Positions 32,971 through 54,378 of a DNA stretch of 64,000 nt are shown piece by piece. Position 1 is the first letter of the stretch. Every line of letters begins with the position of its first letter. The translations under genes were made by a program, and so were the position numbers. The notes beneath the pieces are model-generated. The model ran no database searches, was not told the origin of the DNA, and saw only the letters and a program-made list of their open reading frames with translations. Origin of the DNA: an uncultured bacterium (GTDB lineage Bacteria; Bacillota; Clostridia; Oscillospirales; Oscillospiraceae); NCBI GenBank assembly GCA_945873205.1, contig CAMCCC010000003.1:62001-126000 (forward strand), written 5' to 3'.

Positions 32971-33675
32971 ATGACAGGAAACGATCTCGCAAATAGCCCG
33001 ATATTATACATCTTGATTGCAATCGGACTTCTCTACATTATTGCATTTGCAATATTCAGCTTTATCAAGACAAAGAAGAAGTGCATTGAACTCGGTGTTT
33101 CTGAAAAGACCATTTCTGATGTTGTTAAAGCAACAGCAACAGCCTCAGTAGTGCCCAGTCTTGCAATTCTGCTCGGCTTCCTTACTCTGGCGGTTTCTCT
33201 CGGTCCTGTATGGCCTTGGTGGCGTCTATCCGTTATCGGCTCTCTTTCATATGAGATCATGGCAGCAGACTACACTGCCAAAGGCATCGGTGTTCCCCTG
33301 GCAGATATTCTGTCCTCTACCCCGGATGTCTTTGCCGCGGTTATGATCGTCATGACCTTTGGTGTTATTTTTGCGCCTTTGTTTGCAGCTGTCGTAGGTG
33401 AGAAATATTCCACCGGCGTTATGAAAGCAAAGAGCGGAACCAGTGATTGGGGCAGTATTCTTTCCACTACATTCTACATTGCCCTGTTTGCCGTTTATGT
33501 CCCCGTCCTGCTGTTCACGGATCTGCCCACTGCCCTTACGATGGCAACCAGCTTGTTCTTGACTGTGGTACTTGGCATTGCCGGAAAGAAGGTTCCCTGG
33601 CTTAACAACTTCACAATGGCAATAGTACTTATCTTGAGTATGGCATCCAGTATCCTTTGGGTACGACTGTTTTAA
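32971..33675 (+). CDS. DUF5058-like integral membrane protein
   Basis: 234 residues with six or so hydrophobic segments and no signal peptide. The opening NSPILYILIAIGLLYIIAFA and the loop KTKKKCIELGVSEKTISDVVK fit my recollection of DUF5058. Placement between D-serine ammonia-lyase and a second membrane protein suggests that the two form a transporter for the compound processed by the operon. That is context only. GGGAGGAAG precedes the ATG. The next gene starts 18 bases after its stop. Confidence 0.72.
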   Translation: MTGNDLANSPILYILIAIGLLYIIAFAIFSFIKTKKKCIELGVSEKTISDVVKATATASVVPSLAILLGFLTLAVSLGPVWPWWRLSVIGSLSYEIMAADYTAKGIGVPLADILSSTPDVFAAVMIVMTFGVIFAPLFAAVVGEKYSTGVMKAKSGTSDWGSILSTTFYIALFAVYVPVLLFTDLPTALTMATSLFLTVVLGIAGKKVPWLNNFTMAIVLILSMASSILWVRLF

Positions 33676-33693
33676 CGAGGGAGGTAACTTGTA

Positions 33694-34470
33694 ATGCGTA
33701 AAGAAAAATCCAAGGAAGCATCGACCGTTAAAGTTGATCCGTTTACCAAGTGGGCCCACAAAACAGGCCGCCGGTTCATGCTCAGCTTCCTTCTCTATAC
33801 CTTCTGCATTCCCCTTATAATCTGCGCTATCTACGATTGTTGGCCGTCCATTAAAATGCTGGTTCCCGGTCTTATTGCCATCTGTGCAATTATGCTTCCC
33901 ACCAGCATTGCTGAGGTTGCGAGCTATGTTCCTATTCTGGGTTCCTCCACATATCTTACCTGGGCAACCGGCAACCTGATGAACCTCAAAATTCCCTGCG
34001 CCATTGAAGCCCAAAAAATAGCAAAGGTGGAAGCAAACACAACTGTAGGCGACTGCATTTCTCTTATTTCTACCTGTATTGCTTCTGTAACCACGATTAT
34101 TATTCTGGCAATTGGTATGCTTCTTCTTGTACCTCTGAAGGGAATTCTGCAAAATGAAGTTATCGCGACGGCCAGCAACTATATCCTCCCCGCATTGTTT
34201 GGATGTATGTCTCTTGGTATTATTGGCCGCGGCAGTGCCCCTACTTACATCAAGAACAGGCTGCTTATTGCTCTTGTCCCCGCGGCGCTGGTTTCCATCC
34301 TGGCAATCGTTGGGATTGCAAGCTCGGGCCTTGCCGGATATCTGCTGCTTGTCATGATCCCCATTTCTATCCTGGCTGCCCGCATCCTGTGGAAGAAGGG
34401 CATTGTCAAGGTAGCGCCGAACCCCGGGTACCATGCGCCGGAGGAAACCCCCGTCCAAGTGGAAGAGTGA
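33694..34470 (+). CDS. Integral membrane protein, partner of the DUF5058-like protein
   Basis: 258 residues with a charged, Lys-rich cytosolic N-terminus (about 25 residues) and about six hydrophobic segments. A conserved-looking central loop reads VPILGSSTYLTWATGNLMNLKIPCAIEAQKIA. I do not recognise a named family with confidence. Its size, tight spacing (18 bases after DUF5058, 6 bases before the peptidase) and shared composition suggest the second half of a two-component carrier. GAGGGAGG lies before the ATG. Confidence 0.6.
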   Translation: MRKEKSKEASTVKVDPFTKWAHKTGRRFMLSFLLYTFCIPLIICAIYDCWPSIKMLVPGLIAICAIMLPTSIAEVASYVPILGSSTYLTWATGNLMNLKIPCAIEAQKIAKVEANTTVGDCISLISTCIASVTTIIILAIGMLLLVPLKGILQNEVIATASNYILPALFGCMSLGIIGRGSAPTYIKNRLLIALVPAALVSILAIVGIASSGLAGYLLLVMIPISILAARILWKKGIVKVAPNPGYHAPEETPVQVEE

Positions 34471-34476
34471 AGAAAA

Positions 34477-35949
34477 ATGAAAATATTTATCTCTCAGTTT
34501 GGGCATGAAACGAATACCTTTGCTGCCGACAGAACGGTTGAAGATCGATTTCACCAGTATCAGTGGCGTTTTGGGCAGGAAATCCTTGACGCCAGCAGAG
34601 GTGGAAATGATTATCTGAGCGGTATGCTGGCAGTTGCAGATGAGATGGGTGCAGAGATTGTCCCTGGCTTTGCAACCTTTAATGTGGGCGGGCTAATTAC
34701 GGATGAGGCATACTCTACCATCAAGAGAAACATTGTAGAGAGCCTGTCAAACGTCGTTGCCGATATCGACGGGATTTGCCTTTCGCTGCATGGGGCTGCT
34801 GTTTCCGAGAGCATCGACGATCTGGAACTGGATCTGCTGAAAGCGATAAGAGAAATAACCGGTCCAGATATGCCGATTATGGCCACCTTTGATCTGCATG
34901 GCAACATTTCTGCGGATATGGTTTCGCTGCTGACTGGTGTCTATAACGTCAAAGAATATCCCCATATTGATTGCGCTCAGGCCGGAAAAACAGCAATGTC
35001 TGTGCTGATTCGGACAATTCGCGGAGAAATCAGTCCCTGCGTGGCCTACAGGCGTATCCCCATGCTGGTTCCCTGCGCCACGGCCTCAACATTTCAGGAA
35101 CCTGCAAAGGGAATCAAGGAGTACCTGAAGGCGTATACGGAGGAGCATAAGCTCCTGGGCGTTTCATTTTTTCACGGTTTCCCATATGCCGATCTGCCAA
35201 TCGCCGGGGCTTCTGTCATCGTGAATGCTGAGGCCAGCCAGGATCAAGCAGAAAAAGCAGCCGATGAGCTTGCTGCTTACATTTGGGACAAAAGACATGC
35301 GTTCGATGCTGATTATCTGAGCGTTTCAGAGGCAATGGATCAGGCGCTTGCTATCGAAGGCAAACCGGTAGTAATCAATGAAACATCGGATAATCCGGGC
35401 GGCGGTACCCCTGCCGATGGCACACATTTGCTCCGTGAAATGCTTAAGCGGGACATCCCCGGCTCCTGCTTTGGGTTTATCTATGACCCGGAATTTGTCG
35501 AGCTGGCAGAGAAAACTGGCGTAGGTGGCAGAGTATCTGGCCTTCTTGGCGGAAAGACAGACAAGATCCATGGTGATCCTATTGAAGTCAAAGACGCCTA
35601 TGTTAAGCTGATTACAGACGGAACTTATTTCACTGCAAATGCGGTTCAGGGTTACGGAGTAAAGTTCAGCATAGGAAAGACTGCCCGTATTGTAATTGGA
35701 AATGTGGACATTATTGTAGGCTCTATGCGGTTCCAGACGATGGATGACAGAATTTTTCTCCTCAATGGAATTAACATTGCCGACTACAAGATCGTTGCGC
35801 TCAAGTCCTCACAGCATTTCAGAGCTTTCTTTGAAAAGGTATCCGCTGGCATTGTCACAGCTGATCCCCCCGGTATTCATACGGCAAACTTCTCCCAGCT
35901 TAACTATCGGAAACTGAAACACCCAATATACCCATTGGATAAAAGCTAA
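34477..35949 (+). CDS. M81 family metallopeptidase (MlrC-like)
   Basis: 490 residues of the M81/MlrC family. MlrC of sphingomonads hydrolyses linearised microcystin peptides, and most family members have unknown substrates. The N-terminus FISQFGHETNTF with His10 and Glu11 and the later FDLHGNIS and EYPHIDCAQAG stretches are the expected metal-binding regions; SDNPGGGTPADGTHLLREM is also characteristic. No signal peptide, so it acts in the cytosol after uptake. With dsdA in the same operon, a D-amino-acid-containing peptide or amide is a plausible substrate (inference). Confidence 0.87.
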   Translation: MKIFISQFGHETNTFAADRTVEDRFHQYQWRFGQEILDASRGGNDYLSGMLAVADEMGAEIVPGFATFNVGGLITDEAYSTIKRNIVESLSNVVADIDGICLSLHGAAVSESIDDLELDLLKAIREITGPDMPIMATFDLHGNISADMVSLLTGVYNVKEYPHIDCAQAGKTAMSVLIRTIRGEISPCVAYRRIPMLVPCATASTFQEPAKGIKEYLKAYTEEHKLLGVSFFHGFPYADLPIAGASVIVNAEASQDQAEKAADELAAYIWDKRHAFDADYLSVSEAMDQALAIEGKPVVINETSDNPGGGTPADGTHLLREMLKRDIPGSCFGFIYDPEFVELAEKTGVGGRVSGLLGGKTDKIHGDPIEVKDAYVKLITDGTYFTANAVQGYGVKFSIGKTARIVIGNVDIIVGSMRFQTMDDRIFLLNGINIADYKIVALKSSQHFRAFFEKVSAGIVTADPPGIHTANFSQLNYRKLKHPIYPLDKS

Positions 35950-37169: not shown

Positions 37170-37943
37170 TTAAAGCATGTTCCCAAATTTTTGGATGTAT
37201 TCCGTTGGGGAGCAGCCGGTATGTTCTTTGAAGGTGCGGTCAAAATGATACACATTGGTAAAGCCGCATTCCCGCGCAATCTCCGATATGGATAAATAAG
37301 ACTTGCCTATGAGAAGTTCCTTTGCTTTTGCCATCCGCGCATTGAGAATATATTTCTTGGGGGAAATGGAATATTGCTCTTTGAACATGCGATGAAAATA
37401 CCCCACGCTTATATGCGCCTGCGATGCGATTTTTTCCACGGTAAGCTCGGGATTGGCGTAATTCTTCTCCATGTATGAGACGGCAGGAAGCAGCAGCGGA
37501 TTGTTGGCTTTTGACGCGAGCATCAAATGGCTCAGCATATCGTAAAACAGACTCATCGCCCGCGCATTGCAGAAAGGGCGGTCATAGAGAGAAAGATTTC
37601 GGATCTGTTCGTAGGTCTGAAGATAATACTCCGGCGTTGACAACTCAAAGACAGCAAACTCCTGGTTGTTGAGAGGCTGCTCACAGTAAAAATTGATGAG
37701 AGGAAAGTCCCCCTTGCAGATGCCTTCCAGAGAATAGTCTCTCCCCATGGGCAGTAAAACGGCATGATCGTAATCCGACAAATAAGTTTCATCCTGATAA
37801 TAGTAATGAATCCTGCCGCCTTTTGTCGCGCAGAAGGTCAGGCCGTATCCATAGCGGTCTGTCATTTGTATTTTTCTTCCCTGCGCAATGGGGATGGTTA
37901 ATATGTTAAAAAGCTTCGTGACCACGACATTGTCCAGTTCCAC
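37170..37943 (-). CDS. AraC family transcriptional regulator
   Basis: 257 residues. The C-terminal 100 residues hold two helix-turn-helix motifs (TVEKIASQAHISVGYFHRMFKEQY and LSISEIARECGFTNVYHFDRTFKEH). The N-terminal half has a cupin-like ligand-sensing pattern. It starts at GTG behind AAAGGAGAAAATCACT. It is divergent from the SDR-TRAP gene group across a 381-base AT-rich gap, so it is the likely activator of that group in response to its substrate (inference). Confidence 0.9.
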   Translation of the reverse strand: MELDNVVVTKLFNILTIPIAQGRKIQMTDRYGYGLTFCATKGGRIHYYYQDETYLSDYDHAVLLPMGRDYSLEGICKGDFPLINFYCEQPLNNQEFAVFELSTPEYYLQTYEQIRNLSLYDRPFCNARAMSLFYDMLSHLMLASKANNPLLLPAVSYMEKNYANPELTVEKIASQAHISVGYFHRMFKEQYSISPKKYILNARMAKAKELLIGKSYLSISEIARECGFTNVYHFDRTFKEHTGCSPTEYIQKFGNML

Positions 37944-38324
37944 AGTGATTTTCTCCTTTGCACAAAAATAGAGTCAAAAATTGTGCAGTATCAACATGGC
38001 CTCTGTTTTTTATGTCAGAAAACATCAAATATAGTTAGCTAATGGCATTTACTTGTATTCTCTGGGCGATTACAATTGTTAACGTCAATATAAATAATTT
38101 CCCCTTGAAAGTCAAGGGCTTTTCAAAGCTATTTTATTGAGATTGCTCAATTTTTTCTCCGGCGCATTGTGGATTTCTTCTGTTTTTATGGTTCATGTCA
38201 GACCGTTGTACAGCAGAAAAAATAACAGCGGCAGCAGGACTATGTTTGTTTTTTCATCATAGTCAAGGTTATATTTTGCAAAAATGGATTTGTGTTTTTG
38301 GACAATCAAAGGAAGTGGTTTCGC
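37944..38324. other. Divergent regulatory region between araC and the SDR operon
   Basis: 381 AT-rich bases without a gene. It must carry both promoters. A weak TATATT (38270 region) faces right. A hairpin CCCTTGAAAGTCAAGGG lies at about 38103-38119. No confident AraC binding repeats were found by eye. Confidence 0.5.
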
Positions 38325-39086
38325 ATGAGTTTCAAAGGAAAGACAGCGATCATAACCGGCGCATCCTCCGGCATGGGGTTTCTTTGCAGCCAGTGTCTGG
38401 CAGAGCAGGGTGCAAATGTTGTCATGCTGGCAACGGATCCCAAAAAGCTTCAGGCAAAGGTAGGGGAGCTTACAGCCAAAGGGTACCATGCACTTGGAAT
38501 CCCTACTGACGTGCGGGATTACGCCCAGGTATCCGCCGCATGCAGGAAGGCTGTTGACGCGTTTTCGAGCCTTGATATTGTTGTCAACTTTGCCGGCGGC
38601 GCTGCAACACGCATTTTTGGAACAGAAGATGTTCCCTTCTTCGATATCCCCATCAAGGTGTTTGATTGGGGGCTGGATGTAAACCTGAAAGGCCAGTTCT
38701 ATATGGGGCATGCCGCAATGAAATATATGGCAGCACAGGGCAGTGGCGTGATCATCAACATTGGCTCCATTACCGGAGCGGAAGCCACAGCCGGGGACGT
38801 TTCCTATGCAACGGCGAAAAGCGGCGTTATGAACGGCCTTACAAAGTCATTGGCCCTTGTTGGCGCGCCTTACGGTGTACGCTGCTGCTGTGTGTCTCCC
38901 GGCCCTGTACTGACGCGCCCCGGCATGGCAGATATGAAAACCCTTTTGGGGCGGGCCGCCGATCCCCAGGAGGTAGTCGATTTGGTTTTGTTCCTTGCCT
39001 CTGAGAAAGCATCATTTATCACCGGGGAGGATATCCTGATCGACGGTGGGCGCCTGATTATGAAAAACAAAGGAAATAAAGGATAA
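38325..39086 (+). CDS. Short-chain dehydrogenase/reductase
   Basis: 253-residue classical SDR: cofactor loop TGASSGMG near 11-18, NFAGG near 91 (in place of the usual NNAG), Ser in NIGSITGAEATAGD, and the catalytic YATAK. It ends with DILIDGGRL. Substrate unknown. In context it is the first of five or six plus-strand genes (dehydroquinase-like, Fe-S flavoenzyme, TRAP importer, second SDR), pointing to a polyhydroxylated ring acid or similar alcohol. GGAAG precedes the chosen ATG; a frame extension to 38292 lacks a site. Confidence 0.9.
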   Translation: MSFKGKTAIITGASSGMGFLCSQCLAEQGANVVMLATDPKKLQAKVGELTAKGYHALGIPTDVRDYAQVSAACRKAVDAFSSLDIVVNFAGGAATRIFGTEDVPFFDIPIKVFDWGLDVNLKGQFYMGHAAMKYMAAQGSGVIINIGSITGAEATAGDVSYATAKSGVMNGLTKSLALVGAPYGVRCCCVSPGPVLTRPGMADMKTLLGRAADPQEVVDLVLFLASEKASFITGEDILIDGGRLIMKNKGNKG

Positions 39087-39106
39087 AAGAATAAGGAGAA
39101 TAAAGT

Positions 39107-39919
39107 ATGGAGGCGAAGAAACCCAGTTTTCTCAACCACGACCATGCACTGCTGACCTCAATGGTACAGCTAAAGGATCCTGAGAGTTGTATCACGCTGA
39201 TTCGCAACTCCGCCGCCAGCGGTGCCGAGGCTTACGGAATACAGATGTGTGAGATTGAGCGGCAGTACAGAAACGAAGCGGATCTCAGGAAAATCTTCAG
39301 CCGCTGCGGGAAGAAGCCCATCTATATCACCAACTACCGGCTGCGGGAAAGCCTTGGCATGGGTGATGATGAACTGGCGGAAGAACTTCTTCTGGGTGTC
39401 AGGGCAGGCGCGTCGCTGGTGGATGTGCCTACAGATATGTACGATCCCGCGCCGCTGCAGATGTCTTTCAAGCCGGAAGCCGTGGAAAAGCAGAAAGCCT
39501 TGATTGACCGCATCCACGAGGCTGGCGGAGAGGTCATGATGTCGACGCATACCACCAACACGCTGGCAGCTTCCGGTTCCTTCACCTTCATGCCGCCGGA
39601 GAAAGTGGTGGAAATCGGTTTGCTCCAGGAGGAGCGGGGCGCGGATATTGCAAAAATCGTCACCCGGGCAGACACGGAAGAAGAGCTTCTTGACAACTTC
39701 AAGGCCATGACTATGCTCAAGAAGGAACTTAATATCCCGTTTCTGTTTTTGTCCAACGGCCGCCACAACAAGCTTCAGCGGATTATCGGACCCTATTTTG
39801 GAAACTGCATGATTCTGTGCATGTATCAGTACGAAAACCACACTTCCCGGGAACAGCCGCTGCTGCGCTCCGCAAAGCAGGTTATGGACAACATCGACTG
39901 GGATCCCTACAGGGAATAA
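39107..39919 (+). CDS. Type I 3-dehydroquinate dehydratase-like protein
   Basis: 270 residues resembling class I 3-dehydroquinases (AroD), which dehydrate 3-dehydroquinate to 3-dehydroshikimate through a Schiff base. The lysine candidate is in DIAKIVTRADTEEELLDNF, which matches the AroD stretch well. A His in MMSTHTTNT occupies the catalytic His position. The N-terminal acidic/Arg region (TNYRLRESLG) is only partly conserved and one residue shorter than in AroD. It could be a true dehydratase or a relative acting on a similar ring acid. The neighbours (two SDRs, Fe-S reductase, TRAP importer) favour catabolism over aromatic amino acid synthesis. Confidence 0.72.
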   Translation: MEAKKPSFLNHDHALLTSMVQLKDPESCITLIRNSAASGAEAYGIQMCEIERQYRNEADLRKIFSRCGKKPIYITNYRLRESLGMGDDELAEELLLGVRAGASLVDVPTDMYDPAPLQMSFKPEAVEKQKALIDRIHEAGGEVMMSTHTTNTLAASGSFTFMPPEKVVEIGLLQEERGADIAKIVTRADTEEELLDNFKAMTMLKKELNIPFLFLSNGRHNKLQRIIGPYFGNCMILCMYQYENHTSREQPLLRSAKQVMDNIDWDPYRE

Positions 39920-39945
39920 AGCATAGTACACAGGGAGGTCAGCAC

Positions 39946-41916
39946 ATGTCTTACGCAAATTTGATGAGCCCCATTACGATAAAAAACATGACCATCAGGA
40001 ACCGCGTGATGATGACCCCTATGGGCACAAATCTTGCGAACCCGGATGGAAGCATTTCAGAGGAACACAAAAACTACTATGAGCTCCGGGCCAAAGGCGG
40101 CACCGGCCTGATTGTGGTGGAAAACGTCTGTGTGGCGTTTCCCCTTGGCTCCAACGGCACAAGCCAGCTTCGGCTGGATCACGACAGCTTCATACCCCAT
40201 ATGTATGAGCTGACCGAGCGGGTACACGCCCGCGGCTGCAAAATCGCCATTCAGGTAAACCACGCAGGAGGCGCTGCAAATCCCGCCAGAATCGGCTGCC
40301 AGTGCGTCTCCGCCTCGGATATTCCCTGCAAAACCGGCGGCTTCAAGCCCAGAGCCATGAGCACGGAAGAGGTTTACGAGCTGATCAGGAAGTACGCGGA
40401 GGCTTGCAAACGGGCACAGATGGCAGGCTTTGACGCCGTTGAGATACACGCAGGCCACAGCTATCTGGTAAATCAGTTCCTTTCCCCCACCACCAACAAC
40501 AGAACAGATGAATTTGGCGGCAGCATGGAAAACCGCGCCCGCTTCCTGAAGCTGATTCTTAAAGAAACCAGAGCCATGGTCGGCCCCAATTATCCGATTA
40601 TGATCCGCATCTCTGCCGACGAGTTTGTCCCCGGCGGGCTGACACTTGCGGACACCCTGGAATGGCTGCCGCTGGTGGACGAATATGTTGACCTTTACAA
40701 TGTCTCCGCCGGCTTGAATGACTCGATGGAGAAAATGATCGATAAGGCATATCTCCCCGACGGCTGGAAGAGATACCTGGCAAAGGCCGTAAAAGAGAAG
40801 CTTCACAAGCCCGTCATCACTTCCGGCAACATCCGCGACCCGAAGGAAGCGGAAGCGATCATTGCCAGCGGCTGTGCGGACATGGTCGCCATTGGCAGAG
40901 GGCTGATCGCCGACCCGGAATGGTGCAACAAGGTAAAAGAGGGACGGGAAGACGAGATCCGAACCTGCATCTCCTGCTGTATCGGCTGCGTTGGAAACAG
41001 AATGGTCTTTAACCGCCCCATCCGCTGCACAGTCAACCCGGCAGTGACGACCGGCGACGCATACAAGAAGAGACGGGTCAACAAGGCTTGCAGGGTAGTA
41101 GTCATCGGCGCCGGTACGGCCGGTCTGGAAGCGGCCTGCACAGCAGCGGAACTGGGCTGTGACGTGGTACTGATGGAGCAGAGCGATCACCTGGGCGGCA
41201 GAGCCTCTTATATTTGCAATCTGCCGGAAAAATTCCGGATGAAGGATCTTGTCACATACATGGAAGCCCGGGTGAAACATCTGCCCAATCTGGACGTCAT
41301 GCTCAACACCGAGGCTACCAAAGAAAAGGTAGCGGCGCTGAGACCTGACCTGATTGTGTGCGCCACCGGCTCCAAGATTGTCACCCCCAATATTCCCGGT
41401 TTGCTGGACAACCTGGCGAAAGGCAATATTCTAACCGCGGACGGTGTGATTGAACACGTGCTGGACGGCAGCTTCTCCCTGGACATGGCCGGCAAAAAAG
41501 CCGTGATTATCGGCGGCGGCGCCACCGGGCTTGACTTGGTGGAGTGCTTTGCCAACAAGGGCGCAAGCGTCACCGTTGTGGAGATGATGCCGGTGATCGG
41601 CAATGGGATGGACCTTGTCTCCAAAGTCAGCATCACCAATCTCATGCGGGATAAGAATGTGTGTCAAATGCCCAATACCAAGCTGCTGGAGGTACGGGAG
41701 CACAGCTTTGTCACCGACGCCGGGGAGCTTCCCTTTGATTACGGCTGCGTGTGTCTGGGTTTGAAGTCCTATAACCCGCTCTTTGATGAAATGAGCACCA
41801 TTGCACATACCGTATCCGTGGGTGATGCCCAGAGAGCACCCAGGCAGATCATCGACGGCGTAAGGGAAGGCCGGGAAATCCTCAACACTTTGGAAAGCAT
41901 GGGATTTTTGGATTGA
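39946..41916 (+). CDS. NADH:flavin oxidoreductase with Fe-S cluster (2-enoate reductase family)
   Basis: 656 residues with three parts. An FMN TIM barrel comes first (about 1-340; MSPITIKNMTIRNRVMMTPMG, later HAGHSYLVNQFLSP and NNRTDEFGGSMENRARF). A [4Fe-4S] motif follows (CISCCIGC and a Cys twelve residues on). Last is an FAD/NAD(H) domain with two Rossmann loops (VVVIGAGTAGLEAA and AVIIGGGATGLDLVE). This is the layout of 2,4-dienoyl-CoA reductase, 2-enoate reductase, and the BaiCD/BaiH enzymes. It reduces an activated C=C bond. GGGAGG lies seven bases before the ATG. Substrate unknown; the upstream dehydratase would make such a double bond. Confidence 0.9.
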   Translation: MSYANLMSPITIKNMTIRNRVMMTPMGTNLANPDGSISEEHKNYYELRAKGGTGLIVVENVCVAFPLGSNGTSQLRLDHDSFIPHMYELTERVHARGCKIAIQVNHAGGAANPARIGCQCVSASDIPCKTGGFKPRAMSTEEVYELIRKYAEACKRAQMAGFDAVEIHAGHSYLVNQFLSPTTNNRTDEFGGSMENRARFLKLILKETRAMVGPNYPIMIRISADEFVPGGLTLADTLEWLPLVDEYVDLYNVSAGLNDSMEKMIDKAYLPDGWKRYLAKAVKEKLHKPVITSGNIRDPKEAEAIIASGCADMVAIGRGLIADPEWCNKVKEGREDEIRTCISCCIGCVGNRMVFNRPIRCTVNPAVTTGDAYKKRRVNKACRVVVIGAGTAGLEAACTAAELGCDVVLMEQSDHLGGRASYICNLPEKFRMKDLVTYMEARVKHLPNLDVMLNTEATKEKVAALRPDLIVCATGSKIVTPNIPGLLDNLAKGNILTADGVIEHVLDGSFSLDMAGKKAVIIGGGATGLDLVECFANKGASVTVVEMMPVIGNGMDLVSKVSITNLMRDKNVCQMPNTKLLEVREHSFVTDAGELPFDYGCVCLGLKSYNPLFDEMSTIAHTVSVGDAQRAPRQIIDGVREGREILNTLESMGFLD

Positions 41917-41984
41917 CAGCCCCTTTCAATAAGCGCATTTTGGGCACTGCCCACAAAAATATTGCAAAAAAGGAGAAAAACAAC

Positions 41985-43031
41985 ATGAAGAAATTACTCG
42001 CCCTTGTTCTGGCGCTCACCATGGTGTTCGCACTGTGTGCCTGCGGTCAGAAGGCGGCCCCCGCCGCAAATGAACCCCCTGCCGAGAAGCCGGCAGAAGC
42101 AGCCCCCGCGGAGGAAACCACAAGCTACGAGCCTATGGCCTTCAAGTATTCCTGCGCAGAAGGCGTTAACAGCGTGGTTGTGGCAAATGTTACCGCCGCA
42201 CTGGAAAAAGTCACCGAATACACCGGCGGCGCCTACACCTTTGAGATCTTCCCCGACAACCAGCTTGGCTCCATCACCGACGTTCAGGAATCTGTTTTTG
42301 CGGGCGCACCCATCATTGAGTCCGTCGGCTTCGACCAGCTTGGCGACATCGTTCCCGCCTTTGCTCCCGCTTCCTTCCCCTACATGTACAAGGACATTTA
42401 CGAGGTCTATGACCTGGCAGAGTCCGAGTGGATGAGCGATCTGCAGAACGAATTTGCCGCCGCCGGCATCCACACCATTGCGCTGGGCGCCAACGGCTAC
42501 CGCCACTTCATCAGCACCAAGCCCATCAATGACGCCGCTTCCGTCAAGGGTATGATCATCCGCATGGGTCCCTCCAGCGCAGCCCAGGGCTTCATCAAGG
42601 TCATGGGCGGTACTCCCACCACCTCCACCTGGGGCGACAACTACTCCCTGCTCCAGACCGGCACCTTCGACGCCTGCGAGGCCAACCTTGAAGCACTGTG
42701 GAACGGCAGCTTCTACGAGGTCTGCGACTACCTGAGCCTGACCGGCCACTTCGTCACCCCCTGCGCGCTGATCATCAATAACGACATCTGGAACTCCATT
42801 CCCGCCGATGTGCAGGAGGTCCTTGCGCAGGCCCTGTCTGAAGGGCTCCGCGGCGCCACTGATGCCGCCATGGAAAATGAGGCCGGCTACATCGAGAAGT
42901 TCAAGGAAGCCGGTGTTGAGGTCATTGAACCCGACAAGGACAGCTTCGCTGCCTGCGTCCCCGCCCTGTTTGAAGAACTGAACGTGGATACCGCAATCTA
43001 TGACGAGATCCGCGCCGCCATCGAGAAGTAA
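41985..43031 (+). CDS. dctP: TRAP transporter substrate-binding lipoprotein (DctP family)
   Basis: 348 residues. Signal peptide ends in a lipobox at Cys20 (ALCAC). The mature protein has the DctP fold: FKYSCAEGVNSVVVAN near the start, PTTSTWGDNYSLLQTGTFDACEANLEALW in the core, and a C-terminal IEKFKEAGVEVIEPDKD. A conserved Arg usually binds the substrate carboxylate in this family; IIRMGPSSAA holds a candidate. The ligand is probably an organic acid of the pathway encoded upstream. AAAGGAG lies before ATG. A hairpin separates it from the permease genes. Confidence 0.9.
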   Translation: MKKLLALVLALTMVFALCACGQKAAPAANEPPAEKPAEAAPAEETTSYEPMAFKYSCAEGVNSVVVANVTAALEKVTEYTGGAYTFEIFPDNQLGSITDVQESVFAGAPIIESVGFDQLGDIVPAFAPASFPYMYKDIYEVYDLAESEWMSDLQNEFAAAGIHTIALGANGYRHFISTKPINDAASVKGMIIRMGPSSAAQGFIKVMGGTPTTSTWGDNYSLLQTGTFDACEANLEALWNGSFYEVCDYLSLTGHFVTPCALIINNDIWNSIPADVQEVLAQALSEGLRGATDAAMENEAGYIEKFKEAGVEVIEPDKDSFAACVPALFEELNVDTAIYDEIRAAIEK

Positions 43032-43045
43032 CAACACATGCTCTG

Positions 43046-43076
43046 CTGAAAGCACCCGCTTTGCGGGTGCTTTCAG
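43046..43076 (+). other. Hairpin between TRAP binding protein and permeases
   Basis: Perfect 14-bp stem (CTGAAAGCACCCGC with its complement, three-base loop) without a T tract. Such stems can stabilise the upstream mRNA and lower permease expression relative to the binding protein. Confidence 0.7.
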
Positions 43077-43108
43077 GGAAATTCTGAGAGAACGCAAAGG
43101 AGCAGAAC

Positions 43109-43603
43109 ATGAAAAACAAAAAAGTCAGGTGGGTTCTGGAGAATTTTCCGATTATCGTTGCGGGAATAGCCCTCTTTTTCGCTATTTCCTTCACCACTGT
43201 CAATGCACTGAGCCGCTATCTGTTCTCCCGAACTTTTGTCTGGACAGATGAACTGGTTGCAATGGGTTTTGCTTACACTGTATTTTTCGGCAGTGCGGCT
43301 GCCTGTAAATATGGTATGCATTATGGACTGGAGCTGCTTTCCAATGCCTTACCGGATCGGGGAAAGAAGGTTCTGGAGCTTCTGATTTCCCTGCTGTCTC
43401 TGGTTCTGATTTGCTGTCTGGCCTATCTGGCTTGGGTTTTGACCATGAATGTGGGCGCAAAGATTATGACCGCTACCCGCATTTCTTACCGCTGGTTTGA
43501 CTTGGGGATGGCTTTGGGCCTTTCCCTGATGGTCATCTATGCCGCAGAAAATGTATACCACCGGGCCCGGGCCCTTTTCCAAAAGGAGGAAGCTCATGAC
43601 TAG
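43109..43603 (+). CDS. dctQ: TRAP transporter small permease (DctQ family)
   Basis: 164-residue membrane protein with four hydrophobic segments, the DctQ size. The stretches NALSRYLFSRTFVWTDELVAMGF and later YGMHYGLELL fit the family. It bridges the binding protein and the large permease. The stop overlaps dctM by eight bases, so translation is coupled. Confidence 0.88.
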   Translation: MKNKKVRWVLENFPIIVAGIALFFAISFTTVNALSRYLFSRTFVWTDELVAMGFAYTVFFGSAAACKYGMHYGLELLSNALPDRGKKVLELLISLLSLVLICCLAYLAWVLTMNVGAKIMTATRISYRWFDLGMALGLSLMVIYAAENVYHRARALFQKEEAHD

Positions 43604-44894
43604 TACCGCAATCATAACCATCGGCTTGGTTTTGGTCCTTGCCATCCTGGGTGTGCCCATGTGGCTGGCAATTGTGGGCGGAACGCTGCCCTTCTTCCTG
43701 TTTCTGGAACCGGGCTTACCCTCGCAATTGGTAGCACAGCGGATGATTGCCATGACGGAGAACTCCTCTTATCTGGCAATTCCCTTTTTCATTACAGCCG
43801 GCTGCATCATGAATTATTCCGGAATCTCCAAGCGTCTGATGGATTTGGCCGATGGCCTGGTAGGGCACCTGGCCGGTGGCCTGGGCCATGTGAATGTAGT
43901 CCTCTCTGTACTGATGGGCGGCATTTCCGGCTCTGCCGCGGCGGACGCTGCCATGGAGAGTAAAATCCTTGTTCCGGAGATGGAGCGGCACGGTTATGAC
44001 AAGGAGTTCAGCGCCGCTGTCACGCTGGCGTCTTCGCTGATTACGCCCATCATTCCGCCCGGGATGGGCCTGATTATCTTTGCCTTCACCACCCAGATCT
44101 CCGTTGGCCGTATGCTCTGCGCCGGATACATCCCCGGCTTTCTGTGCATGGTGCTGATGATGGCCTATGTGGGCTGGTACTCCAAACGGCACGGCTACAA
44201 AGGCAGCCGGGAGAAAATGGCTTCCCCAAAAGAGCTGGGCAAGCTGGCGCTGGATGGAATCTGGGCCATTCTCATGCCCTTTGGCCTGATCCTTGCCCTG
44301 CGGGTCGGCGCCCTGACAGCCACCGAGGCTGGCGCCATCTGCGCGGTATATGCCGCTGTTGTGGGAATCTTTATCTATAAGGAAATCAAGTGGAAGCATG
44401 TGTGGCCCATTGTAAAGGAATCGGTTCTGGGCACCGCCACAATCATGTCTCTGGTCTGTGCCTGCAATGCATTGGGATATTTCATGACCTATCTGCGCAT
44501 TCCTCACGCCATCTCCACCATGATTATCAACGCCAATCTCAGCAAGTACAGCTTCCTGATTCTGGTCAATGTCATTCTCCTCATCACCGGCATGTTCATG
44601 GAGGGCAGCGCGCCTGTGCTGATCCTTTCCCCGCTGCTGATGCCGGTTGCCCGTTCTCTGGGCATCGATCCCATCCATTTCGGCCTTGTCTTTATCTTCA
44701 ATATCGGTATTGGCAATATGACCCCGCCCTTCGGCGCTGTTCTTTACCAGGTGGCAGGCCTTCAGAACATTCCGATCGGACGGCTTTCCAAAGCCTCCCT
44801 GCCATTTATCGGCATCATGCTGATCGTTTTGCTGCTGGTAACCTTTATCCCGCAGTTGTCGCTGTTTATCCCCAATCTGGTTTACGGAGCCTAG
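43596..44894 (+). CDS. dctM: TRAP transporter large permease (DctM family)
   Basis: 432 residues with about eleven membrane segments. Family stretches: VPMWLAIVGGTLPFF, GGLGHVNVVLSVLMGGISGSAAADAAM (the conserved GxSGSAxAD loop), LITPIIPPGMGLIIF, and GMFMEGSAPVLILSPLLMPVAR near the end. It forms the sodium-driven channel part of the TRAP importer. AAAGGAGGA precedes the ATG. The next gene (SDR) follows after 20 bases. Confidence 0.93.
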   Translation: MTSTAIITIGLVLVLAILGVPMWLAIVGGTLPFFLFLEPGLPSQLVAQRMIAMTENSSYLAIPFFITAGCIMNYSGISKRLMDLADGLVGHLAGGLGHVNVVLSVLMGGISGSAAADAAMESKILVPEMERHGYDKEFSAAVTLASSLITPIIPPGMGLIIFAFTTQISVGRMLCAGYIPGFLCMVLMMAYVGWYSKRHGYKGSREKMASPKELGKLALDGIWAILMPFGLILALRVGALTATEAGAICAVYAAVVGIFIYKEIKWKHVWPIVKESVLGTATIMSLVCACNALGYFMTYLRIPHAISTMIINANLSKYSFLILVNVILLITGMFMEGSAPVLILSPLLMPVARSLGIDPIHFGLVFIFNIGIGNMTPPFGAVLYQVAGLQNIPIGRLSKASLPFIGIMLIVLLLVTFIPQLSLFIPNLVYGA

Positions 44895-44914
44895 TATCAA
44901 AGGAGGAATTCCCA

Positions 44915-45625
44915 ATGAATTTTACTGGAAAGGTTGCCCTTGTAACCGGTGCGACAAAGGGAATCGGAAAAGCCGTAACGGATATTTTCATCCGCCAGGG
45001 CGGAACTGTGATTGCCGTCGGCCGCAATGGCTCCGCATTGGAAGCGTTAAAGGAAGAATACGGTGAAAAGCTGCTCTCTTACCAGTGCGATGTGGCCGAC
45101 GAGCAGGCGGTCAGAAACCTGGTCAAAGCAGCCATAGACAAGACGGGCCGCATTGATATTCTGATTAACAACGCGGGAATCTATATGGAAGACAAAGCAC
45201 CCTTTGTCCAGCAGAACAGCTCCATATGGAAAAAGAAAATCGATATTAACATTCTTGGAACGCTCTATATGACCCACGCGGTCCTCCCCCACATGATCGC
45301 GCAGCGCGGCGGACGGATTGTCAATGTGGCTTCTGTCGCGGGCATCTACGGGATTCGCGATATGGTTGATTATTCGCTCACCAAAGGGGCCATTCTCTCT
45401 TTTACAACCAGCCTTGCCAGAGAAGTCGGTGAATATAATATCACCGTCAACGCTGTCTCGCCCGGCAATATCAACACCTACAATGATCTGCCGGAACTAT
45501 CCTACATGAACCGGTCCGGCACCCCGGAGGAATGCGCGAATGTGATTGCCTTTCTCGCCAGTGATGAAGCCAGCTTTGTCTCCGGCTCGAATTATGTTGT
45601 CGATGGCAGCAGAAAGAAGATTTGA
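44915..45625 (+). CDS. Short-chain dehydrogenase/reductase (FabG-like)
   Basis: 236-residue SDR: TGATKGIG near 11-18, NNAG near 85, Ser in NVASVAGIYG and YSLTK catalytic pair, ending VSGSNYVVDGSRKKI. Shorter than most by the loss of part of the substrate loop. As second SDR of the cluster it may catalyse a further alcohol/ketone step after the flavoenzyme. AAAGGAGGAA lies before the ATG. A terminator at 45769 ends the group. Confidence 0.9.
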   Translation: MNFTGKVALVTGATKGIGKAVTDIFIRQGGTVIAVGRNGSALEALKEEYGEKLLSYQCDVADEQAVRNLVKAAIDKTGRIDILINNAGIYMEDKAPFVQQNSSIWKKKIDINILGTLYMTHAVLPHMIAQRGGRIVNVASVAGIYGIRDMVDYSLTKGAILSFTTSLAREVGEYNITVNAVSPGNINTYNDLPELSYMNRSGTPEECANVIAFLASDEASFVSGSNYVVDGSRKKI

Positions 45626-45979: not shown

Positions 45980-46663
45980 TTACATGATGCCAAAAGTCGC
46001 AAAAGCTTCCACCGTGGGCATACCGGCCCGAATTGCATTCGCTACGGCATTTTCTCCTGAAACCTTTTCATAGGCTTTCTGGATAATCTCTTTTTCCTGC
46101 CTTTGCGGGATCACCAAGACACCATCAACATCCCCGAAAACAATATCTCCCGGGTTCACCAGCACATCTCCAACCATAATGGGCACACGATAGGCAGTCA
46201 CCTTCCCGCGGACCCCCTGGTCCTGGGCATATGTCCCGATGCTGAAAACCGGCATGTTCGTTTTTAACAGGCCGCGGGTATCCCGTATGAAGCCGTTCAC
46301 AGCAAACCCCGCAGCCTTTAAATAGGCTGCCCGGGTTGCCATCAGCTCCCCTGCCACGGCGTACGAATCGGACGATCCGGAGCAGATATATACCTCGTTC
46401 TCCTGCAAGCCGTCCAGAGCTTCAAACATGACCCCAAAGGGCTGATCCAGTCGGGGATCCCCTTCCGGCACACAGTCAATGTCCGATTCCTGTACCGTCA
46501 TTGCCCGGCCTACCAGGACCATGTCATCCCGAAGAGGTTTTATTCTGGCGGGCAAAAACTGATGCTGCAGGCCCAGTCCGTCCATAATATCGCCTACGAC
46601 AGCAGTGTATAAATCCCGCCGGATAAGCGCAAAAAGCTCACTGTCATTCCTATAGGAAACCAT
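45980..46663 (-). CDS. RraA family protein (HMG-type aldolase or decarboxylase)
   Basis: 227 residues of the RraA/HMG aldolase family. Metal and substrate residues sit in GDIMDGLGLQHQF at the start and NGFIRDTRGL in the middle, with GDVDGVLVIPQR after it; the Arg-Asp pair is characteristic. Members either cleave 4-hydroxy-4-methyl-2-oxoglutarate-type acids, decarboxylate oxaloacetate, or act as RNase E inhibitors. Its place 11 bases after a KDG kinase gene favours a 2-oxo acid carbon-carbon lyase. It is the last gene of a three-gene minus-strand unit. Confidence 0.85.
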   Translation of the reverse strand: MVSYRNDSELFALIRRDLYTAVVGDIMDGLGLQHQFLPARIKPLRDDMVLVGRAMTVQESDIDCVPEGDPRLDQPFGVMFEALDGLQENEVYICSGSSDSYAVAGELMATRAAYLKAAGFAVNGFIRDTRGLLKTNMPVFSIGTYAQDQGVRGKVTAYRVPIMVGDVLVNPGDIVFGDVDGVLVIPQRQEKEIIQKAYEKVSGENAVANAIRAGMPTVEAFATFGIM

Positions 46664-46674
46664 CTCGCACCTCT

Positions 46675-47697
46675 TCAGCGCTGCACTCTGCCGGAGGCGT
46701 TGCCGCTTGCCAGAGACTCCACCTCCGCCACGCTGACCAGATTGAAATCATGCTCAATGGTGTGCTTCAGGCAGGAGGCTGCCACAGCGAAGTTGATGGC
46801 ATCCTGGTTGTTCTTGCCCACCAGCTGGGAATAAATCAGGCCGCCGCCAAAGCTGTCGCCGCCGCCAACACGATCCACAATGTGGATGCGGTAGCTGGGG
46901 GAGAACACAGCCTCGCCGTTTTCATACAGCATGGCCGCCCAGTCGTTGTCGTTGGCGGAAATGCTGCCCCGCAGGGTGATGGCCACCTTCTTGAAGCCGA
47001 AGCGGTCGCACAGCTGCTTTGCCACGGAGATATATCCCTGGTGATCCAGCTTTCCGGCGTTGATGTCGGTATTCTCCGCCGCGATGCCGAACACGTCCTT
47101 GGCGTCCTCCTCGTTGGCAATGCACACATCCACATAGGGCATCAACTGGCTCATGACCGCATTGGCCTGGGCACTGCTCCACAGCTTCTTGCGGAAGTTC
47201 AGGTCGCAGGAAACGGTGACGCCCTTGGCCTTGGCAGCCTTGCAGGCGGCCAGGCAGATCTCCGGCAGCTTGCCGCCCAGGGCCGGGGTGATGCCGGTCC
47301 AGTGGAACCAGTCCGCCCCATCAAAGATGGCATCCCAGTCAAAGTCCTCCGGCTGGGCCAGGGCAATGGCAGAAGCCTTCCTGTCATAAATGACCTTGGA
47401 AGCTCGCTGGGAGGCACCCTTCTCGCAGTAGTACACGCCCAGGCGGTCGCCGCCGCGCACCATGTACTTCGTATCCACACCAAAGCGGCGCAGCGCATTC
47501 ACGGCGCACTGGCCGATCTCATGGGCCGGGACCTTTGTGACAAAGGCGGCGTCCACGCCGTAGTTTGCCAGGGAGACGGCCACGTTGCACTCACCGCCGG
47601 CATAGCTGACTTCAAACTTCTCCGCCTGGATAAAGCGCTGATAGCCCTCCGGGTTCAGGCGCATCATAATCTCACCAAAAGTAATTACTCTTGCCAT
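46675..47697 (-). CDS. kdgK: PfkB family sugar kinase, probable 2-dehydro-3-deoxygluconokinase
   Basis: 340 residues of the ribokinase/PfkB fold. N-terminal ITFGEIMMRLNPEGYQRF, central GGECNVAVSLANYGVDAAFVTKVP and C-terminal VDRVGGGDSFGGGLIYS, which contains the catalytic Asp of the GxGD motif. The KdgK assignment rests on similarity and on the KDPG aldolase gene immediately upstream. It phosphorylates 2-keto-3-deoxygluconate to KDPG, feeding the Entner-Doudoroff aldolase. GGAGAA lies before the ATG. Confidence 0.88.
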   Translation of the reverse strand: MARVITFGEIMMRLNPEGYQRFIQAEKFEVSYAGGECNVAVSLANYGVDAAFVTKVPAHEIGQCAVNALRRFGVDTKYMVRGGDRLGVYYCEKGASQRASKVIYDRKASAIALAQPEDFDWDAIFDGADWFHWTGITPALGGKLPEICLAACKAAKAKGVTVSCDLNFRKKLWSSAQANAVMSQLMPYVDVCIANEEDAKDVFGIAAENTDINAGKLDHQGYISVAKQLCDRFGFKKVAITLRGSISANDNDWAAMLYENGEAVFSPSYRIHIVDRVGGGDSFGGGLIYSQLVGKNNQDAINFAVAASCLKHTIEHDFNLVSVAEVESLASGNASGRVQR

Positions 47698-47720
47698 TTA
47701 TGTTTCTCCTTTCCCCGCAC

Positions 47721-48377
47721 TCACTCTGCGTTTCTGACGGCTTCCACCAGCGCCTTTGCGGCGGCGGTCAGCTTCTCGAACTCCCCGGCCTCGATCCATT
47801 CCTTCTTGGCCAGGTTGCCGCCCACGCCCAGACCCACAGCGCCGGCCTTCAGAAACTGGGCTGCGTTCTCCTCGTTTACGCCGCCCACGGCCATCATCCT
47901 GATGTGGCTCAAAGGCGCCTTGACAGCCTTCAGATAACCGGCGCCCAGATTGCCCACCGGGAACAGCTTCACAAAGTCCGCCCCCGCATTGTGGGCAGTC
48001 TTGATCTTGCTGGGCGTCATAGCCCCGGGCATGGACACCAGACCCAGCTCCCGGGTCTTTTTGATAACATCCACATCCGTATCCGGAGAGATGATGAAGG
48101 CGCCGCCGGCCCTTGCGGTCATCTCCACCAGCTCCGGGCTGGTGACGGTGCCGGCGCCGACAAACATTCTGCCCTCGTATTCCTTCGCCAGGGCCCCAAT
48201 GGCGTCGGCAGTGGCCTGCCATGTTTCGGGCGCCTTCTGGTTGTAGGTGATCTCCATCAGCCGGATGCCGCCGGCATACAATGCCTGGGCCACTGCCCTG
48301 CACTGCTCCGGCTCCGCTCCCCGTACGATGGCAACGATCTTTTCCTTGAGGATCAATTCAATAACTTTTTCTCTCAT
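47721..48377 (-). CDS. eda: KHG/KDPG aldolase
   Basis: Class I aldolase of about 218 residues that splits 2-keto-3-deoxy-6-phosphogluconate to pyruvate and glyceraldehyde 3-phosphate (or 4-hydroxy-2-oxoglutarate to pyruvate and glyoxylate). The Schiff-base lysine lies in NAGADFVKLFPVGNLG, and FVGAGTVTSPELVE and MAVGGVNEENA are family stretches. An in-frame ATG at 48407 is possible; GGAAAAGG before 48377 and the usual N-terminus favour 48377. It is first of the eda-kdgK-rraA unit. Confidence 0.92.
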   Translation of the reverse strand: MREKVIELILKEKIVAIVRGAEPEQCRAVAQALYAGGIRLMEITYNQKAPETWQATADAIGALAKEYEGRMFVGAGTVTSPELVEMTARAGGAFIISPDTDVDVIKKTRELGLVSMPGAMTPSKIKTAHNAGADFVKLFPVGNLGAGYLKAVKAPLSHIRMMAVGGVNEENAAQFLKAGAVGLGVGGNLAKKEWIEAGEFEKLTAAAKALVEAVRNAE

Positions 48378-48444
48378 TTTCTGTACCTTTTCCAGATGTG
48401 TCGGCACATGAATACAGTACAGATTCGGAGCATATGAGTTTCCC

Positions 48445-48555
48445 TTATTTCAGTTGGATTCGAACTTCATCCTGATGAAGGATCAAGTGCTTCGTCAGCT
48501 GTTCAACCGCCAGCTGCTCGTCCCTGGCTTTGATGGCATCCAGTATCCACTGGTG
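48445..48555 (-). pseudogene. GntR-type (FCD domain) regulator, C-terminal remnant
   Basis: Minus-strand frame: HQWILDAIKARDEQLAVEQL then TKHLILHQDEVRIQLK and a stop at 48445-48447. This is the last helix pair of a FadR/FCD-type regulator's ligand domain (as in HxxILDAIxxRD). A stop codon lies directly upstream in frame, and no helix-turn-helix part is found. FCD regulators commonly control uronate and KDG genes, so this was probably the local repressor of eda-kdgK-rraA. Confidence 0.65.
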
Positions 48556-48758
48556 TCATTGAATGGAGTTCCAACTTTAATTTCCTGCATTTGTAGAAAA
48601 GCTCTAAATAATTTTGCATCCAGAGCCGGCAAGGAACATCTCGGAACTGCAGCGCGCTATGCGCAGTCCCCTTTTATGGGCTTCCTCTCTATTGGCATTG
48701 TGGAACAGAGCATCAGCGGGGACTGCAGTTGGCGCCGGATGTGTACCAGCGGATGCTG

Positions 48759-48807
48759 AAAAAAAGAGAGCGTGGCGTTCCTTTGAACGCTCCGCTCTCT
48801 TTTTTAC
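48759..48807 (-). terminator. Two-arm hairpin in the gap
   Basis: Two stems in series (AAAAAGAGAGCG/CGCTCTCTTTTT and GCGTTC/GAACGC) form a long imperfect hairpin with A and T tails. It lies between the GntR remnant and the kinase gene, which ends at 48928, and can terminate minus-strand transcripts of the kinase unit. Confidence 0.6.
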
Positions 48808-48927
48808 TGCTTTATGTCTTGTTGTATAGAACCATTTCAAAACGACAAAATTGCTGCATTCGTTACAAAAGATGGGCATCTGATGCCTTGCTTCCTTGCA
48901 AGGCTGTAATTTATGGACCTTATTTTT

Positions 48928-50445
48928 CTATCTGATATAGAGAGGCCTGATACTTTCATAAAGCTTTTTATACTTTAAGAAAAGCTCGTCATAGACATCC
49001 GTATGATCTTTGTTTGGATATAGTGTTTCACTGTCTGTAGCCAAGGTCTTACCAAAGTCTTTGGGAATGCATGGAAGACCGACCGCATCAGCTGCGATTA
49101 TGATGTCACCCAGCGTTTCCGTTTCGCTGTTTTTCAGGCGCTGTATCGGCCGTCCCAGCACGTCTGCAAAGATCTGGCACCACACCCGGCTGTTGGCAGC
49201 TCCCCCGCCCAAAGGGATAGGCTGATCGCCCGAAATGTTGGCAGTGACGATGCTGGCGCAGTCTCTTATTGACAGCGCGACGCCTTCCATAACAGCTCTT
49301 GCGAAAGAACCGAAGGAAGCATCCAGCCCGATGTTGAAAAACACACCTCTGGCATTGCTGTCCCATATGGGGCTCTTTTCTCCAGACAAATAAGGGAGAT
49401 AGATCATCCCGTTTGCCCCGGCAGGGACAGACGCGGCCGCCAAATTGATCCCTTCGTAAATATTGCCGTCTACCGGCGCACCCTTTGCGAATACAGCCTG
49501 GCCGAAGGTATCCTTGAACCAGCGGAGTGAAATACCGGCATTGTTTGTGGTCTGAATGATCAGATAGTTATCGTTGATCGTATGGGCGTTAATAAGGCGG
49601 TCATCAAAATTGGGACTTGTGGAAACATAGCAGAGCCGGCCGCTGCTGCCGATTGTAATGGCCAGATCTCCCGCATATAGAGCGCCGGCGCCCAGCGTAG
49701 CCGATACTGTGTCCACTGAGCCTGCCGTGACAGGCGTCCCCAAAGCAAGGCCAGTTTGTTCTGCTGCCGCCCGGGTCACGGTCCCAACAATTTCATTCGC
49801 ACGATACACCTTTGGCAGGAGCCAAGCCGGCACTTCCGCCCGGGAGAGAATCTCCTGCTCAAGATCCCCGGTATAGATGTTACCAACACAGGCCAGATCA
49901 ACCCTGGATGTATTGATGGAAAATTCTCCTGTCAGTCGTTTCACAATGAAGCCGCTGGGAGAGAGAAACTTGCAGCCCGGCTTAATCAGTTGGGGATAAT
50001 TGTCCATAATCCATCGGATGGAACTGAGTGCGCAGGACCCCATTGCCAGCTTGTTGGCGGAGAGCTCACGGATTCTGGCAGCCCCAAGTTTCTCTTCAAG
50101 CCATGCCACCTGTGCCCCTGACCTCCGGTCGTGCAGGCCGATGGCATTGTGGAAAACCTGCCCGTTTTCATCGGTAAGGCAAATGGCGTTGGTACAGGAA
50201 AGGCCAATGGCGGCGATCCTGGAACTGTCCACCCCGCCGCTTGAGAAACATTTGCGCAGATTGGTGCAGACACAGTCCCACCATCGGTTGGGGTCCTGCT
50301 CCGTCCAGCCGGCAAACTTGTGTATCATGGGATAGTCCTGATACGCCGTTGCCATAATGTTGCCGTTCAGATCGTATACAGTGCACTTCGTCCCGGTCGT
50401 TCCTATGTCGATTCCCAGAAGAAGATCTTTGTTTCCAGTATACAT
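48928..50445 (-). CDS. FGGY family carbohydrate kinase
   Basis: 505 residues of the FGGY kinase family (xylulo-, glycerol-, erythritol-, glucono- and related kinases). The ATP phosphate loop LLGIDIGTTGTKC is near the start, TEQDPNRWW is family-typical, and the C-terminal GGGAANSRVWCQIFADVLGRP closes the ATP pocket. It phosphorylates a sugar or polyol; identity cannot be told from the sequence. A TTG at 50460 extends the frame, but GGGAGAG before the ATG at 50445 fits better. It follows the DeoR gene on the same strand, then the aldolase gene. Confidence 0.88.
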   Translation of the reverse strand: MYTGNKDLLLGIDIGTTGTKCTVYDLNGNIMATAYQDYPMIHKFAGWTEQDPNRWWDCVCTNLRKCFSSGGVDSSRIAAIGLSCTNAICLTDENGQVFHNAIGLHDRRSGAQVAWLEEKLGAARIRELSANKLAMGSCALSSIRWIMDNYPQLIKPGCKFLSPSGFIVKRLTGEFSINTSRVDLACVGNIYTGDLEQEILSRAEVPAWLLPKVYRANEIVGTVTRAAAEQTGLALGTPVTAGSVDTVSATLGAGALYAGDLAITIGSSGRLCYVSTSPNFDDRLINAHTINDNYLIIQTTNNAGISLRWFKDTFGQAVFAKGAPVDGNIYEGINLAAASVPAGANGMIYLPYLSGEKSPIWDSNARGVFFNIGLDASFGSFARAVMEGVALSIRDCASIVTANISGDQPIPLGGGAANSRVWCQIFADVLGRPIQRLKNSETETLGDIIIAADAVGLPCIPKDFGKTLATDSETLYPNKDHTDVYDELFLKYKKLYESIRPLYIR

Positions 50446-50484
50446 GCCATGCTCTCCCAACGCATTTGATGTAAAAATTCCCGT

Positions 50485-51267: not shown

Positions 51268-51298
51268 AGCTTCTCTCTTCTCGTCTCGGCAATTCTTA

Positions 51299-51925: not shown

Positions 51926-52209
51926 ATGATCACCATCCAATATGATATGAATATGTATATGTGAGTCAAAATCTGTAAAAAAGTTTCAAACCTATATAAC
52001 ATCATTAGGGGGAGAAAGTCAAGAATATTTTACCGGATTTCCCTCATTTTTTCAAATGATGCGAACAAATGTTGAAAATAGACAATTTCATGTACCCTGA
52101 TTCAGATAAAATGGCAATTGAAAATAGTGAAATAAAATGATAGATTGTGAAAAAAGAGAGCTGAGAACTGCTTCTTTTTGAAACGCAAAGATAACCGGGA
52201 GGGGAACAT
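51926..52209. promoter_or_regulatory. Divergent promoter region, aldolase and RpiB units
   Basis: About 284 AT-rich bases, no gene. On the minus strand TTGACT (52017-52022), 18 bases, TATATA (51993-51998); a second candidate is TTGACT (51964-51969), 16 bases, TATCAT (51942-51947). The rightward promoter was not fixed. A DeoR operator could lie here. Confidence 0.5.
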
Positions 52210-53169: not shown

Positions 53170-53216
53170 TTTACCCGGTCGGGGAACCGGGAAAATATAA
53201 AAAGGAGATAAACAAA

Positions 53217-54266: not shown

Positions 54267-54292
54267 GTGGAAAAACCAGATTGATCAAGGAA

Positions 54293-54320
54293 TCTCCGGT
54301 GCGAGAAATCGCACCGGAGA
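54293..54320 (+). other. Hairpin between second TRAP binding protein and permeases
   Basis: Perfect 12-bp stem TCTCCGGTGCGA/TCGCACCGGAGA with a GAAA tetraloop and no T tract. Likely an mRNA-stability or attenuation element. Confidence 0.7.
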
Positions 54321-54378
54321 CCATGAGCGTTTGCCCCTTTGAAGGCCTGACAGAGTCCCTCTTTGGATAGGAGATTGC

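Follow-up and report, generated by a model that had tools for sequence, protein, structure and literature searches.

Positions 38325..45625 of a 64,000-nt stretch of DNA from an uncultured Oscillospiraceae bacterium (the whole stretch is called the window here, and all gene positions follow its numbering) carry a compact operon. In our reading, at a probability of roughly 55%, it imports a hydroxylated cyclohexane or cyclohexene carboxylic acid through a tripartite ATP-independent periplasmic (TRAP) transporter and reductively removes one ring hydroxyl. Seven plus-strand genes are packed in 7.3 kb, with intergenic gaps of 20, 26, 68, 77, -8 and 20 bp in operon order. They encode two short-chain dehydrogenases/reductases (SDR1 and SDR2), a dehydroquinase (DHQase)-like lyase, an Fe-S flavoenzyme of the old yellow enzyme (OYE) type and the transporter components DctP, DctQ and DctM:

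37170..37943, minus strand: AraC-family regulator, GTG start, divergent (Pfam HTH_18 80.5 bits, HTH_AraC 79.4 bits)
37944..38324, no strand: intergenic region from the AraC gene to the operon, 381 bp, sequence read directly
38325..39086, plus strand: SDR1, NAD(P)-dependent dehydrogenase, ATG start, 253 aa (Pfam adh_short_C2 158 bits)
39107..39919, plus strand: predicted DHQase-like Schiff-base lyase of a distinct family, 270 aa (Pfam DHquinase_I 44.3 bits, cut-off 22.2)
39946..41916, plus strand: FMN/FAD/4Fe-4S enoate reductase, OYE or 2,4-dienoyl-CoA reductase type, 656 aa (Oxidored_FMN 260 bits, Pyr_redox_2 107 bits)
41985..43031, plus strand: DctP, TRAP solute-binding protein, start approximate (Pfam 185 bits)
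43109..43603, plus strand: DctQ, TRAP small permease (Pfam 89 bits)
43596..44894, plus strand: DctM, TRAP large permease, start approximate (Pfam 372 bits)
44915..45625, plus strand: SDR2, 236 aa (Pfam adh_short 193 bits)

Every operon gene exceeds its Pfam gathering cut-off, with scores far above chance, and the TRAP set is complete, all three components being detected by Pfam. The gene content named in the original prediction (an SDR, a dehydroquinase-like protein, an Fe-S enoate reductase, a TRAP importer and a second SDR) was thus recovered in full at the stated coordinates, on the plus strand. The AraC gene that it also named is present and divergent, but lies outside the interval given for the operon.

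From the genes, the predicted fold of the lyase, its conserved residues and the gene neighbourhoods we infer which reactions take place, in what order and direction, and on which substrate. The transporter would bring in a hydroxylated ring carboxylic acid, and SDR1 would oxidise a ring alcohol to the ketone with a gain of NADH. The lyase would form a Schiff base on this ketone through K183 and, with H148, eliminate the beta-hydroxyl, R225 and Q250 gripping the carboxylate. The Fe-S flavoenzyme would then reduce the resulting enone, and SDR2 would perform the final ketone reduction. Since the enone and ketone reductions would use reducing power in each turn, the route is a possible electron sink. 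The AraC protein would sense the acid or an intermediate. We favour the reductive direction because an ene reductase is present and the relatives are anaerobic (Clostridia-type). The enone would probably be 3-dehydroshikimate or a closely related compound, and the lyase, to judge from its residues, probably acts on a ring keto acid substituted unlike 3-dehydroquinate, or binds its substrate differently.

The predicted structure of the lyase is a DHQase TIM-barrel (predicted local distance difference test score 94.4), and the best PDB matches to the model are type I DHQases. Its family was compared across 83 members: 80 of the 95 relatives found in a one-genome-per-species collection (84,980 species), two paralogues and the window protein. 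A comparison with the active site of AroD, as proposed in the original prediction, gave a divided answer. K183 and H148, the counterparts of the Schiff-base Lys170 and of His143, are invariant in all 83 members; R225 (AroD Arg213) is likewise found in 83 of 83 and Q250 (AroD Gln236) in 76, while R78 is the equivalent of Arg82 and T246 occupies the place of Ser232. Arg213 and Gln236 are taken here to form the carboxylate site of AroD, and the kept Arg and Gln, like the TRAP system, are consistent with a carboxylate substrate. By contrast, the window lyase has G44 and Q46 at the positions of AroD E46 and R48 and no Glu in the place of Glu86. All three residues are present in 6 of 6 AroDs in the alignment (E. 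coli AroD and the five of nine candidate AroD loci that pass a motif filter), where they form the pocket for the ring hydroxyls and pair with the catalytic His. Because this pocket is lost, the substrate is unlikely to be 3-dehydroquinate as such; a ring keto acid whose hydroxyls are fewer or sit elsewhere would fit. The type I assignment of the original prediction stands at family level (DHquinase_I, above) and falls far short of the NCBIfam aroD model TIGR01093 (31.9 bits, cut-off 139.3): by its sequence, the lyase is a DHQase at family level only. The genome encodes a type II dehydroquinase (188 bits) elsewhere, and a biosynthetic role for the lyase was rejected on that ground. A nine-residue insertion (residues 150-158, 39554-39580), missing in 81-82 of the 83 members and modelled with low confidence, directly follows H148 and could reshape the active site.

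The lyase family recurs in company with oxidoreductases. In 300 genomes of the family the lyase gave matches in five including the window's own, two of which (G055, G203) are true AroDs by PF01487 score; SDR1 at E<=1e-40 was found in the same three genomes that hold the DHQase-like lyase. Nine of 398 genomes of the phylum gave a match, two of them, besides the window's, above 230 bits. These genome searches score few candidates per genome (three or four for OYE), so weaker second copies may go unnoticed. Within 5 kb of the 83 lyase genes, tblastn placed an SDR1-type gene at 53 loci, a relative of the quinone oxidoreductase PIG3 at 47, a related AraC gene at 39 (50 within 4 kb by clustering), an SDR2-type gene at 22 and DctM at two. 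The PIG3 identity was confirmed at the two loci tested, with TIGR02824 scores of 357.8 and 325.3 (cut-off 296.8). Of the 46 loci whose flanks are full, an ene reductase is present at 31 and at least one of the five types of oxidoreductase at 43, which agrees with the predicted order of oxidation, dehydration, enone reduction and ketone reduction. The counts are not independent, since lyase-selected loci share ancestry (L070/L071 and L053/L054 have identical gene order). Locus L027 carries, in one run, AraC, lyase, DctP, DctQ, DctM (50% identical to the window DctM), an SDR and PIG3. This arrangement approaches that of the window's operon, except that PIG3 is present and OYE is not.

At 11 of the 83 loci (L033, L039, L044, L048, L050, L051, L062, L068, L070, L071, L090) the lyase is joined by a metallo-beta-lactamase-fold hydrolase (cluster 10) that is perhaps lactonase-like, and at four by a second type. 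Such variants may include the opening of a lactone or ester.

The flavoenzyme combines an OYE barrel with an FAD/NAD domain and has the motifs CX2CX3CX12C at 341 and HAGHSY (HxxHxY) at 168. Its closest relatives in the family and phylum genomes are found in G066, G278, G046, G661 and G369 (51-56% identity); beyond the top relatives, matches in the family genomes reach at most 40%. In a FastTree phylogeny of 16 sequences the window protein and these five form one clade (support 1.0), in which the window protein is sister to the other five (0.98). In G066, G661 and G369 the OYE gene lies together with genes for a YdiB-type dehydrogenase (44-48% identical to E. coli YdiB) and an AroD (44-59% to the E. 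coli enzyme), together with a YdiM-like permease (32-47%) and, in two of the three, a TRAP system. The G661 and G369 proteins exceed the curated AroD and shikimate dehydrogenase cut-offs; the G066 dehydrogenase is under the latter (374 vs 431). The other clade members are thus encoded within YdiB/AroD clusters or in genomes that also contain one, which favours the quinate/shikimate-like class of hydroaromatic substrates first proposed and argues that the enone resembles 3-dehydroshikimate. The candidate assignment of the flavoenzyme as BaiCD was rejected (NF041087 450.7 bits, cut-off 825).

The YdiB/AroD/OYE cluster of G661 adjoins genes akin to E. coli FadK (43%), YdiO, YdiQ and YdiR (L129, 2-6036), and in E. 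coli such genes likewise lie near ydiB-aroD (NC_000913, 1775587-1784677). These neighbours hint that the chemistry extends past quinate reduction to coenzyme A esters, or that the operon is carnitine-like.

Taken together, the same reaction order appears in both operon types, and the window seems to combine them, with SDR1 and lyase from one and OYE from the other. The replacement of a PIG3-type reductase by an OYE-type one argues for an enone as the lyase product. Several observations weigh against hydroxyl removal from a ring acid as we describe it, in addition to the lost pocket residues. The window itself is the one locus of 83 with an OYE gene no more than 5 kb from the lyase, so the link between lyase and quinate hangs on one locus; the gene trees are small, and the lyase loci are related by descent. 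YdiB and AroD occur together in G046 and G278, on another contig than OYE. Of 280 family genomes, 17 encode a true AroD; three of these are G046, G066 and G278, and the other 14, some from the same genera as OYE carriers, yielded no OYE match of at least 50%. The window DctM is distant from those of the YdiB/AroD-cluster TRAP systems (32-33% identity). Neither PIG3 nor OYE lies within 5 kb at 15 of the 46 full-flank loci, and none of the listed oxidoreductases at three. The SDR of L027 shares only 30% identity with SDR2, and no SDR1 relative is near the lyase there. Finally, genes that suit sugar or cyclitol chemistry occur at some lyase loci: within 5 kb, Gfo/Idh at 16, epimerase-like at 15 and zinc alcohol dehydrogenase at 13 of 83, as well as GH2, GH4, GH35 and GH10 genes near some.

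The original prediction in its exact form, in which SDR1 would convert quinate to 3-dehydroquinate, the lyase would yield 3-dehydroshikimate, and flavoenzyme and SDR2 would reduce it, overlaps with our explanation, so that the odds of the two are not to be summed; we consider it rather unlikely. The ties of the OYE clade to YdiB/AroD genomes, the kept Lys, His, Arg213, Gln236 and Arg82 equivalents and the carboxylate-type importer speak for it, but the loss of the E46, R48 and E86 equivalents makes 3-dehydroquinate doubtful, and the score far below the aroD cut-off also speaks against this version. Moreover, the window genome (91% complete) contains no true AroD, no other PF01487 protein and no close YdiB relative, its nearest being an AroE-like match of 58 bits on a different contig, although OYE-clade genomes have both enzymes. 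Given also the distant TRAP system, 3-dehydroquinate as the lyase substrate is not supported.

A route through sugars or cyclitols seems doubtful to much the same degree. Here the lyase family would act once an alcohol group on a sugar acid, a glycoside or an inositol has been oxidised, eliminating a beta-oxygen before reduction of the enone, and the window operon would be a sugar-acid variant. The Gfo/Idh, alcohol dehydrogenase, epimerase-like and glycoside hydrolase neighbours fit this, as does the neighbouring sugar-acid gene set (46-56 kb), which has a TRAP system of its own. Recurrent neighbours gave no substrate clue: 208 non-core neighbours were eligible and 97 were scanned, and none of their 131 Pfam families, judged on the 25 commonest, occurs in more than three, so no single glycan is implied, and the OYE clade and the kept Arg213/Gln236 equivalents point instead toward hydroaromatic acids. 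That the operon is genuine but its lyase a DHQase that has decayed or been repurposed and no longer acts as a lyase, amid unrelated redox chemistry, is very improbable: three AroD active-site positions are changed, and there is a precedent in the Candida albicans Aro1 DHQase domain, where, according to PMC9074039, substitutions can inactivate the fold, but a dead enzyme would hardly retain H148, K183 and R225 throughout its family.

Both SDRs keep the motifs TGxxxGxG, NxAG and S...YxxxK, as TGASSGMG, NFAG and S..YATAK in SDR1 and TGATKGIG, NNAG and S..YSLTK in SDR2; none of the 25 top-scoring models listed per SDR is above its cut-off, and no substrate family was assigned. TRAP relatives in the PDB gave no substrate, the entry row of the best match (4o8m, E 4.9e-33) naming no ligand. 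Between the AraC gene and the operon we found no convincing operator, only short imperfect repeats and promoter-like consensus matches.

The adjacent sugar-acid gene set (45980-56162) includes a second complete TRAP system and genes for RraA-like, PfkB-type kinase, 2-keto-3-deoxy-6-phosphogluconate aldolase, FGGY kinase, DeoR, class II aldolase and RpiB/LacAB proteins. On the other side, 32971-35949 holds genes for a DUF5058 protein (32971-33675) and an MlrC-type M81 metallopeptidase (34477-35949), and between them an open reading frame (33694-34470) without Pfam match and of membrane-embedded appearance. The GC content falls from 0.609 upstream of a tRNA array (28.8-29.3 kb) to 0.517 downstream (28826-64000), and an 18-kb stretch from another contig has 0.612; the operon may therefore lie inside an acquired island.

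Leaves are rich in quinate and shikimate, which gut bacteria reduce, thereby feeding hippurate formation in the host. Among the matches listed from open-licence PMC papers, we recognised none that gives gut-bacterial genes for a reductive quinate/shikimate route. The operon types described here supply concrete candidate enzymes for this reduction and a marker gene, the DHQase-like lyase, which recurs across many uncultured bacteria, about half of them from records that name an animal gut (of the 80 record titles, 39 name a herbivorous mammal, one a chicken and 40 no host, in a collection of uncontrolled make-up). More speculatively, SDR, lyase and ene reductase (PIG3 or OYE) might constitute an undescribed mix-and-match gut module that removes ring hydroxyls singly from hydroaromatic plant acids. 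The module would belong to the bacterial half of the conversion of quinate and shikimate to cyclohexane carboxylate, which the host turns into hippurate, and the lyase would represent a new Schiff-base dehydratase family for rings already without the hydroxyls that AroD needs. We put this forward as a tentative and rather unlikely extension.

Lactobacilli metabolise quinate and shikimate reductively to dihydroxycyclohexane carboxylate, and the proposed route resembles this in its overall logic of oxidation, dehydration and reduction. The window flavoenzyme shares the flavin mononucleotide barrel, Fe-S motif and FAD/NAD domain of the Fe-S flavin enoate reductases BaiCD and FadH, with BaiCD as top NCBIfam match. 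PIG3, absent next to the window lyase, belongs to another protein family (zinc-type alcohol dehydrogenase domains) and, as read here, fills near other lyases the enone-reductase slot that OYE takes in the window. The lyase has the TIM-barrel and the catalytic and carboxylate-binding residues of AroD, but is only ~15% identical to the E. coli and Salmonella enzymes, with Glu46, Arg48 and Glu86 replaced. Compared with the YdiM/N-YdiB-AroD clusters of E. coli and of the Clostridia-side loci L124, L129 and L130, the window has an SDR for YdiB, the DHQase-like lyase for AroD, AraC instead of LysR and a distant TRAP system, and a YdiM-like permease is not among its seven genes by Pfam. It shares with all of them the pairing of one dehydrogenase with one DHQase-fold dehydratase, and with the three Clostridia-side loci, two of which also have TRAP, an OYE from the same clade.

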